From Gudongella sp. (lineage in GTDB: Bacteria; Bacillota; Clostridia; Tissierellales; Tissierellaceae), in assembly GCA_024649995.1 (NCBI GenBank), contig JANKMX010000023.1, positions 1-33,130 on the forward strand: a stretch of 33,130 bases of DNA. Direction: 5' to 3'. The notes beneath the pieces are model-generated. The model had not been told where the DNA came from. It did no database searches and saw only the letters and a list, made by a program, of their open reading frames with translations. Made by a program: the position numbers and the translations under genes. Of this stretch, positions 1-4,782 are shown in pieces. The number at the start of each line of letters is the position of its first letter. The stretch's first letter is position 1.

Positions 1-803
1 TGAGAGAGGCCGTCAAGGCTGGAAGCCAATACGAAAGAGAAATTCAAGAGACAATGGAATATAGCCTTTTTACAGGTGGCAAAAGGCTGAGACCACTTAT
101 GACTTTAAAGGCATATGAGATGTACGACAGCTATATACACAATGCCATGCCATACGCCCTGGCAATTGAAATGATACATACATACTCACTTATCCATGAT
201 GATTTGCCGGCTATGGATGATGATGATATAAGGCGGGGCAAGCCAACAAGCCACAAAAGGTTTGGTGAGGCCATGGCTATCCTCACTGGAGATGCACTAT
301 TGAACCTGGCCTTTCAGACCCTGTTCAAGGCTGCACTTTCATGCAAGGATAATAGGGCTATTTTGGCAGGCTATGAGATTGCAAAGGCATCAGGTCATTC
401 TGGAATGATAGGAGGTCAGGTACTGGATATCTTAGGCGAGGAGAAGAAGATTTCAGAGGAAGACCTGTTCCAAATGTACAGGGGAAAGACCGCAGCCCTA
501 ATTCAGGCAAGCATCCTTTCGGGTGCAATTGCAGGTGGAGCAGGCAAGGAAGACATTGAAGCCTTAAGAGTCTATGGAGAGAAACTGGGAATAGCATATC
601 AGCTTCAGGATGATCTTCTGGATTCCCTAGAGGATAGTGAGATTGAGAAGAGTACATACCTGAGCTTCCATGGTCAGGAGGAAACCAGGGAGATGATCCA
701 AACCTTAAGTGATGAAGCAATTTCAATACTAAGGGGACTTAAGCATCTGGAGACTCAATTCTTCCATGACCTAACCATGGAACTCATACACAGGGAAGTC
801 TAG
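1..803 (+). CDS. ispA: Polyprenyl (farnesyl/geranylgeranyl) diphosphate synthase, 5'-truncated
   Basis: This trans-prenyltransferase condenses isopentenyl diphosphate with allylic diphosphates to make C15/C20 chains for quinone, undecaprenyl and other isoprenoid synthesis in the cytoplasm. The frame is open from the first bases of the window (codons from base 3), so the true start lies upstream; the ATG at 54 is internal, because the family motif GGKRLRP needs about 40 residues before it. Visible motifs are GGKRLRP, the first Asp-rich motif DDLPAMDDDD, the Lys-Thr pair GKTAALI and the second Asp-rich motif QLQDDLLD, all intact. About 266 residues are present of a usual 290. The non-coding RNA unit downstream starts within 40 bases of the stop, which is the classical ispA-OLE arrangement. 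Farnesyl versus geranylgeranyl specificity cannot be told from what is visible. Confidence 0.95.
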   Translation, partial: REAVKAGSQYEREIQETMEYSLFTGGKRLRPLMTLKAYEMYDSYIHNAMPYALAIEMIHTYSLIHDDLPAMDDDDIRRGKPTSHKRFGEAMAILTGDALLNLAFQTLFKAALSCKDNRAILAGYEIAKASGHSGMIGGQVLDILGEEKKISEEDLFQMYRGKTAALIQASILSGAIAGGAGKEDIEALRVYGEKLGIAYQLQDDLLDSLEDSEIEKSTYLSFHGQEETREMIQTLSDEAISILRGLKHLETQFFHDLTMELIHREV

Positions 804-808
804 AAATA

Positions 809-837
809 TTGATATTTTAAGAAAAACATGATATAAT
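809..837 (+). promoter_or_regulatory. Sigma-A promoter of the OLE RNA
   Basis: TTGATA at 809-814 is followed after exactly 17 bases by a perfect TATAAT at 832-837. Transcription would begin about seven bases later, near 844, just beyond the ispA stop. It gives the RNA its own promoter even though it sits in a row of co-directional genes. Confidence 0.8.
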
Positions 838-843
838 CAGCTT

Positions 844-1460
844 GATTGATAGTGGTACAGTATTCTAGTCAGCACAACTATTCTTGAAGGCGGGGCTAAA
901 AATCCGTCAAAGGGCATATCGATGAAGTTCTTTATGTTTGGCTTGCGACGCCCAGTCGTGGGTCTTCATAAGGAGTAAGAAGGATGGGGCGATCTGCAAT
1001 GGCATGCAGGCGTGGACCCTACCTTCGTGGAGACATTGCAGGGTGATAAATAGTACCCTGTAGTGATAAACCTGCAAGACATAAATTTTTAATTAAAAGT
1101 GCAGAGTAGCCTGCCTTGAGTGGAGTAGCGCGGATGGTAAGTTCGACTTGGCATAACCAGGGCCCGGTTTTGCCAGGTTTTGTTATCGAAACCTAATCTG
1201 CAAAAGAGGCTAGGGAATAGAATGGCTGTTGAGGAAAACTCCTAGACTGTTCATAATGAGGTAATCGGAGGATTACAGTGCGGACTAAGTGGTAATCCAG
1301 TTCTACTTTTGGCAACAGGGTAGTGGAGCGATTAAAGGGAAACCGCTGAGCTGGCGACAGGCAGTTCTTTCCAGGGAAATCCTGCTGGACCTAAAGCCGT
1401 AAGATTTACTCAGATTACTACCACATTATTGGGCTGATAGCTTAGCTATCAGCTTTTTTA
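844..1460 (+). ncRNA. ole: OLE RNA (ornate, large, extremophilic RNA)
   Basis: This is a large structured non-coding RNA of about 617 nt, bounded by a consensus promoter and an intrinsic terminator. Seen in the sequence: no plausible reading frame, a base composition richer in G than the flanking spacers, and many local helices. Examples are ATGAAG 923-928 with CTTCAT 964-969, CTGCAATG 994-1001 with CATTGCAG 1034-1041, CAGGGT 1039-1044 with ACCCTG 1055-1060, GTAATC 1261-1266 with GATTAC 1271-1276, and CTAGG near 1210 with CCTAG near 1242. From known biology: OLE is about 600 nt, lies downstream of isoprenoid genes such as ispA and immediately upstream of oapA, localises to the membrane with OapA, and is linked to tolerance of cold, short-chain alcohols and Mg2+ stress. 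Length, position and both neighbours match. I did not run a covariance model, so the class call rests on context and overall character. RNase P RNA and tmRNA do not fit. Confidence 0.9.
1433..1460 (+). terminator. Intrinsic terminator of the OLE RNA
   Basis: A perfect 9-bp stem, GCTGATAGC (1433-1441) with GCTATCAGC (1445-1453), has a TTA loop and is followed by six T (1454-1459). It sets the 3' end of the RNA. Read-through would be needed if oapA has no promoter of its own. Confidence 0.9.
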
Positions 1461-1561
1461 TTACGAATAGCAATTTTATCTAATTTTAGATAAAAATGCG
1501 TATATGATTATCATAAAAAGCTACATTAATTGATTTCAGACACTTTTTTTTATTACGAATA
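1454..1561 (+). repeat. 16-bp direct repeat flanking an AT-rich hairpin
   Basis: The 16-mer TTTTTTATTACGAATA occurs exactly at 1454-1469, running out of the OLE terminator, and again at 1546-1561. The 76 bases between hold a near-perfect 14-bp hairpin: GCAATTTTATCTAA at 1470-1483 pairs with TTAGATAAAAATGC at 1486-1499 with one mismatch. I see no gene and no convincing promoter in 1461-1648. Confidence 0.75.
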
Positions 1562-1562
1562 T

Positions 1563-1618
1563 GAAACTTCTCCATTTCAAATCATGAATTTTCGCAAATG
1601 AATTCAAGGAGAAGCTTC
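1563..1618 (+). promoter_or_regulatory. Long hairpin in the oapA leader
   Basis: GAAACTTCTCC at 1563-1573 pairs with GGAGAAGCTTC at 1608-1618 (10 of 11 positions). An inner helix, TGAATT 1585-1590 with AATTCA 1601-1606, closes a 10-base loop, leaving an 11-base bulge on one side. There is no T tract, so it is not a terminator. It lies 30 bases upstream of the oapA ribosome site and could act on oapA mRNA stability, processing or translation; that role is inferred. Confidence 0.45.
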
Positions 1619-1665
1619 TAGAGGATATATCCATAGGCTTTTCTTATCAACATAGGGGGATAGAG

Positions 1666-2289
1666 ATGGCAAAGAAGGAAGATGAGAGCTTTTACATAAA
1701 ATACAATATGAAATGGGTTCTGTTTATAACCTTTTGGACGTTTGTTCTTGCCATTGGAATTTCAGTGATTGCTGAAAACCTGGTGCAGAATCTCGATGTC
1801 CTTTTTGCATTTATAATACTATTGATAATAATATTTATAGGAATTTTGTTTGATGTCATAGGAATAGCGGTCACCGCTGCAAGCGAAAAGCCATTTCACG
1901 CCATGGCTGCCAATAAAATCGATGAAGCAAGAATTGCAATCAAGCTTGTGAGGAATTCCAGCCAGGTGAGCAATTTCTGCAATGATGTGATTGGAGATAT
2001 AAGTGGAATTATTTCTGGTGCCGTTGCAACCAGTATAGTCTTTCGTCTGATTCTGATTGTGGGAATTGCAGACGGTACAATCCTTACAATACTACTTACA
2101 GCATTTACTGCATCGCTTACCGTAGGAGGAAAGGGTGTAGGTAAATCCGTAGCAGAATACCATCACGAACAGATCATATTTCAGGTTGCCAAGGTGGTTA
2201 ATTTCGCCGAGAAGGTATTCAATGTTGAAATATTTGCAAACAAGAAGAAGGCAAAGGAAAAGAAGGATAAGAAGGGCAAGGAGAAATAG
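1666..2289 (+). CDS. oapA: OLE-associated membrane protein OapA
   Basis: OapA is the integral membrane partner of OLE RNA and anchors the ribonucleoprotein in the cytoplasmic membrane. The 207-residue protein shows about four hydrophobic segments (roughly 17-38, 45-70, 105-132 and 133-155). The third contains the acidic-glycine sequence NDVIGDISG (106-114). In Bacillus halodurans OapA, Asp104 and Gly107 in a comparable DxxG are the residues changed in the known dominant-negative mutant, and Asp107/Gly110 here look equivalent. The C terminus (193-207) is a Lys-rich tail suited to phosphate or RNA contact. The start is ATG 1666 behind AGGGGGA. It lies right after the OLE terminator and just before tlyA, with a two-base step. 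Family assignment is from topology, motif and context rather than a database search. Confidence 0.88.
   Translation: MAKKEDESFYIKYNMKWVLFITFWTFVLAIGISVIAENLVQNLDVLFAFIILLIIIFIGILFDVIGIAVTAASEKPFHAMAANKIDEARIAIKLVRNSSQVSNFCNDVIGDISGIISGAVATSIVFRLILIVGIADGTILTILLTAFTASLTVGGKGVGKSVAEYHHEQIIFQVAKVVNFAEKVFNVEIFANKKKAKEKKDKKGKEK
2278..2283 (+). promoter_or_regulatory. Ribosome binding site fixing the tlyA start
   Basis: AAGGAG lies seven bases before ATG 2291, inside the last codons of oapA. It favours 2291 over the in-frame upstream codon at 2186, which would overlap oapA by 100 bases. Confidence 0.8.
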
Positions 2290-2290
2290 G

Positions 2291-3088
2291 ATGGAAAAGA
2301 AAAGAGCAGATGTGATTCTATTTGAAAAGGGTCTTGTGGAATCGAGGGAAAAGGGAAAGAGGATCATAATGGAAGGTTCTGTTTTCATTGGAGATACAAG
2401 GGTGGACAAGCCTGGTGAAAAGTATTCCGTGGATGTGGACATGCGGATTAGAAGCAACCCTTTGAAGTATGTCAGCCGTGGGGGACTGAAGCTTGAAAAG
2501 GCAATGGAAGCATTCAATGTAGGACTTAAGGACACCGTATGCATGGATATGGGAGCATCCACAGGAGGTTTTACGGACTGTATGCTTCAATCCGGCGCAA
2601 GCAAGGTCTATTCTGTCGATGTTGGCTACGGTCAGCTTGACTGGAAGCTCAGAAGCGACTCACGCGTGGTTGTCCATGAAAGAACCAACATAAGGCATAT
2701 GGATACGGATACAATTCCTGATCGGATGGATTTCATATCAATTGACGTAAGCTTCATAAGCCTTAGGCTTATCCTACCTATCGCATATAGGCTTCTTAAG
2801 GAGGATGGGGCCCTGGTTGCCCTTGTAAAGCCACAATTCGAGGCTGGAAGGGACAAGGTTGGCAAGAAGGGAATTGTAAGGGAAAAGTCCACACACAGGG
2901 AAGTGGTGGAGAATGTATTGGATTTCAGCAATAACATTGGATTTTATCCCCATGGCCTGACATTTTCACCTATAACAGGGACAACAGGAAACATAGAGTT
3001 TCTGCTTCTGCTTAAGAAGGAAGTAGCTCATCTGGATGACAAAAAGATAGACCAGGTTATTGAAGAGGCACATGAAAACCTTAAATAA
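2291..3088 (+). CDS. tlyA: TlyA-family rRNA 2'-O-methyltransferase (hemolysin A family)
   Basis: The 265-residue protein has an N-terminal S4 RNA-binding domain (about 4-63) joined to an FtsJ-like Rossmann methyltransferase. The SAM-binding loop DMGASTGGFTD is at 86-96, followed by VDVGYGQLDW near 109-118 and VKPQFEAG further on, giving the Lys and Asp residues of the 2'-O-methyltransferase set. Mycobacterial TlyA methylates 16S and 23S rRNA at the subunit interface; that role is assumed here by homology. I chose ATG 2291 because it has AAGGAG seven bases upstream and gives the normal TlyA N terminus (a short basic stretch, then R-A-D-V-I-L). In related genomes dxs usually precedes and nadK/argR often follow this gene; here oapA and recN are the direct neighbours. 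Haemolytic activity is a historical name only. Confidence 0.93.
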   Translation: MEKKRADVILFEKGLVESREKGKRIIMEGSVFIGDTRVDKPGEKYSVDVDMRIRSNPLKYVSRGGLKLEKAMEAFNVGLKDTVCMDMGASTGGFTDCMLQSGASKVYSVDVGYGQLDWKLRSDSRVVVHERTNIRHMDTDTIPDRMDFISIDVSFISLRLILPIAYRLLKEDGALVALVKPQFEAGRDKVGKKGIVREKSTHREVVENVLDFSNNIGFYPHGLTFSPITGTTGNIEFLLLLKKEVAHLDDKKIDQVIEEAHENLK

Positions 3089-3102: not shown

Positions 3103-4782
3103 ATGCTCAAGGAGCTTAGGATTAAGAACTTCGCAATTATTGATAATCTGACAATTGATTTTACAGAAGGGTTGAATCTGCTAACTGGTGAAACCGGTTC
3201 AGGTAAATCCATTATCATTGAAGCATTGGAGATGGTCCTGGGTGGAAGGGCAAGCCGTGATATGATCCGTTCTGGAGAAGAGAAGGCGGTTATTGAGGCA
3301 TTGTTTTTCCTGAATGAAGGGCTTCAGGATAAAATGGAGGCCTTAGGCTACGAAAGGACCGAGATCCTTGTTCTCACAAAGGAGATCTGGGAGGACTATC
3401 CCAGCGTTTCCAGAATCAATGGAAGGCCTGTGACCCTGAATGTACTAAAGACCCTAACAAGTAGCCTTGTTGACATCTTCGGCCAGCACGAGCACCAGTC
3501 CCTGCTGGATACAGGAAACCATATACGAATCATTGACTCATTGATGCCCCAAAATGGAAAAGCCTTGCTTGATGAGATTGTGAAATCCCACAGGGATTAC
3601 AAAGACCTTAAAAAGAAGCATCAAGAGCTTACATTGACCTCCCAGGAAAGGGAAAGAGAGCTGGATCTACTGAAATTCCAGATAGAGGAGATAGACGACG
3701 CACAGCTATCCCAGGAAGATGATGAAAATATTGAGCAGGAGTTTAGAAGACTTGATAATTTAAAGGAGACAATAGCTGAAGCATACCAGGCCTTATCCCT
3801 CCTTGGGGATGATTTTGAAGGACCTGGTGCCATACAGCTCATTGAAAAGGCAATCAATATGATTTTCCATTCAGGAAGGTATGACCAGTTCATAAAGGAC
3901 AAGGGGGAAGGCCTTCAGGCTCTACTATATGAGCTTCAAGAGCTTTACAGGGAAACCAGTAGCTACATAGAGAATCTAGACATTGATCAGGAGAGGCTCT
4001 TTGAACTGAGGGAAAGACTTGACCTTATAAATTCCCTCAAGAAGAAGTATGGTAACAGGGTCCTTGAGATCCTATCATATCGGGATGAAATTGGAGAAAG
4101 ATACGACAGACTCCTAAATATTGACAAGGAGCTTGAAAAGGTTGATGGAGAACTCTTGAAGCATAGAGAGAATCTCTTAGGGAAATCACTTGAACTGAGA
4201 CATATAAGAAAAGAAGTTTCCACGGCTCTTTTCAAGGATATGGAGAGGGAGCTGAGGGCTCTCAACATGGATAATGTAAGGTTCAAGGTGGACTTTAGGG
4301 ACCATGAGGAGCCTGGTGAAAAGGGAATGGACAAGATTGAGTTTCTGATCTCAACAAATCAGGGTGAGGAGCTGAAGCCTTTGTCCAAAATAATTTCAGG
4401 TGGTGAGATGTCAAGGATAATGCTTGCCTTCAAGGGAATACTTGCGGATATGGACAATATGCCTACCCTTGTATTTGATGAGATTGACACCGGTATCAGT
4501 GGAAGAACGGCCCAGGTTGTTGGCGAAAAGATCAGAAGGATTTCAGGTGGGCATCAGGTGATTTCAATTTCTCATCTACCACAGATTGCAGCTCTTGCCG
4601 ATACTCACTTTGCCATAAGGAAGTCATCGGATAAAAAGGGAACAATAACAAGTGTTGAGCGGCTCAAGGAGAATGAAAGGATCCAGGAGCTTGCCAGACT
4701 ACTTGGTGGTGTGGAGGTAACTGAAACCACAAGAAAACACGCAAAAGAAATGCTTCAAATGTCAAATAAGATGAAGAAATAG
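3103..4782 (+). CDS. recN: DNA repair protein RecN (SMC-like ATPase)
   Basis: RecN is an SMC-like ATPase that holds and organises broken DNA ends during double-strand break repair by recombination. At 559 residues it is full length for the family. Walker A GETGSGKS is at 29-36, long coiled-coil arms run from about 155-220 and 285-380 (rich in Glu, Lys and Leu heptads), the ABC signature SGGEMSR follows, and Walker B/D-loop VFDEIDTGISG and the HLPQIAA switch lie near the C terminus. The start ATG 3103 has GGAGG about seven bases upstream. Only 14 bases separate it from tlyA, so they are probably co-transcribed. In many spore-forming Clostridia recN is followed by spoIVB and spo0A; here an extended -10 promoter and a Nudix gene follow instead. 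Confidence 0.97.
   Translation: MLKELRIKNFAIIDNLTIDFTEGLNLLTGETGSGKSIIIEALEMVLGGRASRDMIRSGEEKAVIEALFFLNEGLQDKMEALGYERTEILVLTKEIWEDYPSVSRINGRPVTLNVLKTLTSSLVDIFGQHEHQSLLDTGNHIRIIDSLMPQNGKALLDEIVKSHRDYKDLKKKHQELTLTSQERERELDLLKFQIEEIDDAQLSQEDDENIEQEFRRLDNLKETIAEAYQALSLLGDDFEGPGAIQLIEKAINMIFHSGRYDQFIKDKGEGLQALLYELQELYRETSSYIENLDIDQERLFELRERLDLINSLKKKYGNRVLEILSYRDEIGERYDRLLNIDKELEKVDGELLKHRENLLGKSLELRHIRKEVSTALFKDMERELRALNMDNVRFKVDFRDHEEPGEKGMDKIEFLISTNQGEELKPLSKIISGGEMSRIMLAFKGILADMDNMPTLVFDEIDTGISGRTAQVVGEKIRRISGGHQVISISHLPQIAALADTHFAIRKSSDKKGTITSVERLKENERIQELARLLGGVEVTETTRKHAKEMLQMSNKMKK

Follow-up and report, generated by a model that had tools for sequence, protein, structure and literature searches.

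The 33,130-nt stretch of DNA analysed here (the window) almost certainly carries the complete OLE RNA/OapA pair of a Tissierellaceae bacterium, and we consider it very probable that the identity of the pair and its architecture, with its own promoter, its own terminator and a repeat insertion, are both as described below. Among the structured RNAs of bacteria that lack a known biochemical function, OLE is one of the largest. OLE and OapA are already known as a class; what is new at this locus is a conserved hairpin at the 3′ end of the RNA and a terminator-associated dispersed repeat, and these two features give the locus its moderate interest. The features of the locus, apart from the repeat copies, are as follows.

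54..803, + strand: ispA-type polyprenyl (farnesyl) diphosphate synthase gene, upstream neighbour (PF00348, E 8.7e-50; NF045485 FPPsyn, 267.9 bits)
809..837, + strand: sigma-70-type OLE promoter, TTGATA-17-TATAAT, its -10 element preceded by TG (11/12 matches)
836..1440, + strand: OLE RNA (RF01071), covariance match over the full model; transcript about 844-1460
1431..1460, + strand: OLE intrinsic terminator, GGGCTGATAGC-TTA-GCTATCAGCTT followed by a T run (11-pair stem at 1431-1455)
1666..2289, + strand: oapA, 207 aa, OLE-associated membrane protein A (homology to Halalkalibacterium halodurans OapA)
2291..3088, + strand: tlyA-family rRNA methyltransferase gene, downstream neighbour (TIGR00478, 260.6 bits)
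3103..4782, + strand: recN-like SMC-type ATPase gene, next neighbour (PF02463, E 1.6e-18)

OLE RNA and its transcription unit

A preliminary description of this DNA had placed an OLE-class RNA in a gene-free stretch between ispA and a membrane-protein gene, and had proposed a covariance search as a check. The Rfam scan returned an overwhelming score for OLE (RF01071) at 836-1440, covering model positions 1-616 of 616 with 476.5 bits and E 5.2e-137 (gathering score 50), and this was the sole Rfam family that reached its cut-off in the 33-kb window; a genome-wide search found one copy of OLE. No gene was found between the ispA-type gene, in whose 5′ region the contig starts, and the open reading frame at 1666-2289. 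The previously proposed RNA bounds of about 844-1460 also held, being framed by the strong promoter and by the 11-pair terminator with its T run. Promoter-like sites are frequent by chance in the scanned sequence (7 found versus 3.1 expected), and most relatives have a promoter of similar type at the equivalent position upstream of OLE.

The full-length form of OLE contains P7, P8 and the P13 OapB site, as opposed to the reduced variants 1 or 2. The window RNA keeps the GGCGAC loop near its 3′ end, and one internal stem is shorter by about 13 nt, with stems taken from the Rfam alignment and not from the published numbering. The P3/P3.1 helix is absent from the Rfam structure line, and its covariation was tested separately. 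The helix covaries strongly across relatives: 321 of 336 core cells were paired (95.5%) over 48 distinct sequences, compared with a mean of 261.5 and a maximum of 274 after shuffling, and the strands of the window RNA pair at 7/7 core positions. This helix has been proposed to span the membrane (PMC12265935).

Two loops of the Clostridium acetobutylicum OLE dimer resolved by cryo-EM (PMC12286853), the A-rich P4 loop and the self-complementary P9.3 loop, also occur in the window RNA, where the P4 loop reads CUAAAAAU. In the Rfam alignment the P9.3 loop of the window RNA reads AGGGCCC and contains the six-base palindrome GGGCCC, whereas GGCC, GAUC and AGCU are the palindromes named for the Clostridium acetobutylicum dimer (PMC12286853). 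Automatic picking of kissing loops from single-strand folds proved unreliable, choosing the wrong loops and passing over 38 loci, and its results were taken up for the window only.

OapA, the other partner proteins and their distribution

An OapA protein would bind OLE RNA as a dimer. Comparison with H. halodurans OapA, also proposed beforehand, showed that the window protein aligns over its length (41% identity, 206 columns, E 3e-52), and both proteins carry the DxxxD motif, which in the window consists of D107 and D111 in NDVIGD and is invariant in 29 relatives. The DxxG motif highlighted in the preliminary description is real (D63..G66) and equally invariant in 29 relatives; the motif reported to mark OapA is, however, DxxxD, which CNNM domains lack (PMC11332333). 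An AlphaFold model (pLDDT 82, pTM 0.72) contains four long hydrophobic helices, at residues 15-41, 45-71, 98-132 and 134-165, in agreement with the four-helix membrane protein described earlier.

Foldseek searches with this model returned archaeal CorB/CNNM proteins as all four best PDB matches, with probability 1.00 and TM 0.41-0.50 but E-values of only 0.009-0.08, and a search of the PDB by sequence profile gave no match for OapA. A CNNM-like fold has likewise been reported for H. halodurans OapA (PMC11332333). The window protein is thus similar in its transmembrane fold, and weakly similar in sequence, to the CNNM/CorB and MpfA Mg2+ transporters (PF01595). We nevertheless rejected its assignment as an MpfA/CNNM transporter, as it scored 20.2 bits against PF01595, below the cut-off of 28.4, matched no other Pfam domain, has only 207 aa with no CBS or CorC domain, and carries DxxxD.

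The genome also encodes OapB, a KOW protein located between adk and infA that matches PDB entry 7k9b, 'OLE-associated protein B' (E 2.1e-15), as well as bS21 and a single L7Ae protein lying between rpoC and rpsL, which is the YbxF/OapC position. Judged by sequence, every known OLE component is present and constrained. Among the 15 family genomes that carry OLE, 4 yielded no L7Ae protein (G001, G003, G011 and G012), and one of these is only 55% complete; because of these four genomes OapC may be dispensable, or it may have been missed in incomplete assemblies.

The source genome encodes, besides OLE/OapA, a CNNM-family protein of full length (G000:C64:5074-5646, open frame of 469 aa), so that MpfA and OLE/OapA do not simply replace one another here. 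Mutual exclusion of OLE and MpfA was not strict in the family either, a strong CNNM-family match being present in 11/15 OLE-positive and 13/13 OLE-negative genomes.

A scan of genome contigs yielded 168 OapA relatives. The nearest named one, at 89%, is from Soehngenia sp. LH_M25, which identifies the organism as a Tissierellaceae relative of Soehngenia. OLE lay directly upstream of oapA in all 40 OapA loci scanned, among them that of H. halodurans, where OLE is also full-length (538.6 bits), and the linkage asserted in the preliminary description is thereby borne out. Its statement that only a limited set of Bacillota carry this rare RNA was overstated: OLE was present in 15 of 28 Tissierellaceae genomes, and one survey found it in 2,822 Bacillota assemblies (PMC11332333). 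The Tissierellaceae include cultured members (Tissierella, Soehngenia), in which OLE is open to experiment. A seemingly 5′-truncated OLE in Clostridium sp. Cult1 was discarded as a variant, its upstream half being interrupted by 30 N, an assembly gap.

With its score of 476.5 bits, somewhat under that of H. halodurans, and with two repeat copies directly behind it that could cut its coupling to oapA, this OLE might be taken for a decayed relic kept beside oapA; the full-length match, the intact promoter and terminator, the fully paired P3, the open and conserved oapA, the presence of all partner genes and the scores of family relatives (446-509 bits) make such decay extremely improbable. 

The best-supported view of OLE function is the published one, in which OLE would form a membrane-bound dimeric ribonucleoprotein with OapA, serving stress and divalent-ion homeostasis. 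By analogy with published work in other species, two OLE RNAs would dimerise through their conserved loops, OapA would anchor them in the membrane, which P3 would cross or follow, and OapB and OapC, an L7Ae-type k-turn binder, would shape the RNA. The complex may then aid survival under energy stress and on exposure to Mg2+, cold or alcohol, perhaps via regulated divalent-ion transport through the CNNM-like OapA. For this ion-transport and stress mechanism we regard the case as about evenly balanced.

The terminator hairpin that ends OLE

The stem of the OLE terminator, GCUGAUAGC/GCUAUCAGC, is almost invariant in the clade and lies beyond the Rfam model, so constructs that stop at the Rfam boundary would omit it. 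In a scan of 71 OLE loci that required a hairpin and a T run but no particular stem sequence, we found 29 terminators, of which 28 had the stem GCTGATAGC/GCTATCAGC with varying loops and linkers. This stem ends OLE in Tissierellales and some related Clostridia; in H. halodurans and the other Bacilli checked, no OLE terminator was found except a short unrelated hairpin in Paenibacillus. We found no mention of the conserved hairpin in the running text of part of the OLE literature.

The terminator arms were 95-99% identical, a range biased upward by picking arms with a mismatch limit, compared with 37-39% for the flanks of the same loci and 52% for the P3 strand; the sequence-blind scan is the fairer evidence. 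Terminators normally drift with compensatory changes. A terminator so constant in sequence is unusual, which suggests that the hairpin has a further role, for example in setting the 3′ end of the RNA or in protein binding. Constraint on termination alone might also have kept the stem, which is terminator-shaped and followed by T runs, and we give this simpler account slightly less than an even chance, given the contrast between arms and surroundings and the 28 of 29 terminators that share the stem.

The hairpin also bears on how oapA is expressed. In H. halodurans OLE abuts oapA with no terminator found, an arrangement that fits the published polycistronic transcript (PMC12265935), whereas in the window the two are separated by the terminator and a 225-nt gap. 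OLE would here be transcribed from its own promoter and end at its own terminator, and in this lineage oapA would be set apart from the RNA by a sequence-conserved terminator. Since the terminator and the repeat copies behind it separate oapA from OLE, we infer that its transcription depends either on read-through or on a separate oapA promoter.

A dispersed repeat between OLE and oapA

The 225-nt gap between OLE and oapA is the longest among 40 loci tabulated. Its extra portion, at about 1461-1650, consists of a dispersed repeat of about 95 nt that occurs twice in tandem and had not been included in the preliminary description.

1454..1550, + strand: repeat copy 1 (model R1, 83.4 bits), starting inside the OLE terminator's T run
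1546..1645, + strand: repeat copy 2, degenerate (model R1, 56.3 bits), with the direct repeat TTTTTTATTACGAATA common to copy 1

The gap segment matched 11 other places in the genome. Searches with model R1 found 18 copies in the source genome and 22 in one from a different genus; among congeners, one had 10 copies and two others had none. A pattern for the left end of the repeat turned up in 13 of the 28 family genomes, with a maximum of 37 occurrences per genome, while the reversed control pattern gave two matches. Three congeners have no repeat at the orthologous OLE-oapA site, one of them (G003) having an empty site at one other locus as well, and a search of 52 OLE loci from other species found no repeat there.

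Could the extra bases, about 190 in number, instead simply be the promoter region or 5′ leader that oapA would ordinarily have? The segment does contain a weak promoter-like site (TTTAGA-18-TATCAT, 1485-1514), and an inserted repeat may double as a leader. As the sole account of the segment, however, a leader or promoter is refuted by the empty sites in congeners; the copies elsewhere in the genome and the fact that both halves of the segment are copies of each other also weigh against it, and we rate this reading as very unlikely.

The placement of the repeat is strongly biased. In three genomes 25 of 41 copies start directly behind an intrinsic terminator hairpin, compared with 3-5% for control TTTT sites. 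Two copies lie where T-box leaders terminate, within the terminator's T run (L173, G000:C37:7959, and L176, G000:C48:21749), and one of these precedes a gene assigned by eye from its sequence as isoleucyl-tRNA-synthetase-like (ileS-like). The repeat's own terminator-like hairpin, standing between a T-box riboswitch and the downstream sequence, could interfere with control.

Like REP/REPIN, BOX/RUP and MITEs, the repeat is short (about 95-115 nt), palindromic, intergenic, multicopy and patchy among close species. Unlike them, it is strongly placed right behind intrinsic terminators, each copy has its own terminator-like hairpin at the end, and no transposase was clearly linked to it. No Rfam family for the repeat emerged from the 3 + 20 loci scanned, in which only the two T-box leaders matched; searches of phage and plasmid records gave no match, and a shallow literature search found no published description.

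We propose, as a reading with an even chance of being right, that the repeat represents a family of miniature mobile elements not described before, which target the T runs of intrinsic terminators. As each element carries a terminator-like hairpin with it, one could insert behind another, or behind a regulated terminator (T-boxes, OLE), altering what follows, in this case oapA. The two copies at the OLE terminator, inserted in its T run, widen the separation of OLE from oapA in this genome, and such a terminator-seeking repeat would offer a natural case of OLE RNA and its partner gene set apart.

An IS200/IS605 or RAYT parent for the repeat was considered and, on the loci sampled, not favoured: the source genome and many related genomes do carry Y1 transposase genes (about 250-300 aa), but 25 such loci had no flanking repeat. 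A degenerate left end of the repeat occurs upstream of a 256-aa Y1-transposase-like gene in another genome (G027:C1:2552742 and 2552893; L266), the only such link seen. At one further locus in the source genome (L167/L048, G000:C38:11181-11475), three tandem copies with a 96-nt period directly follow a stop codon and not a terminator.
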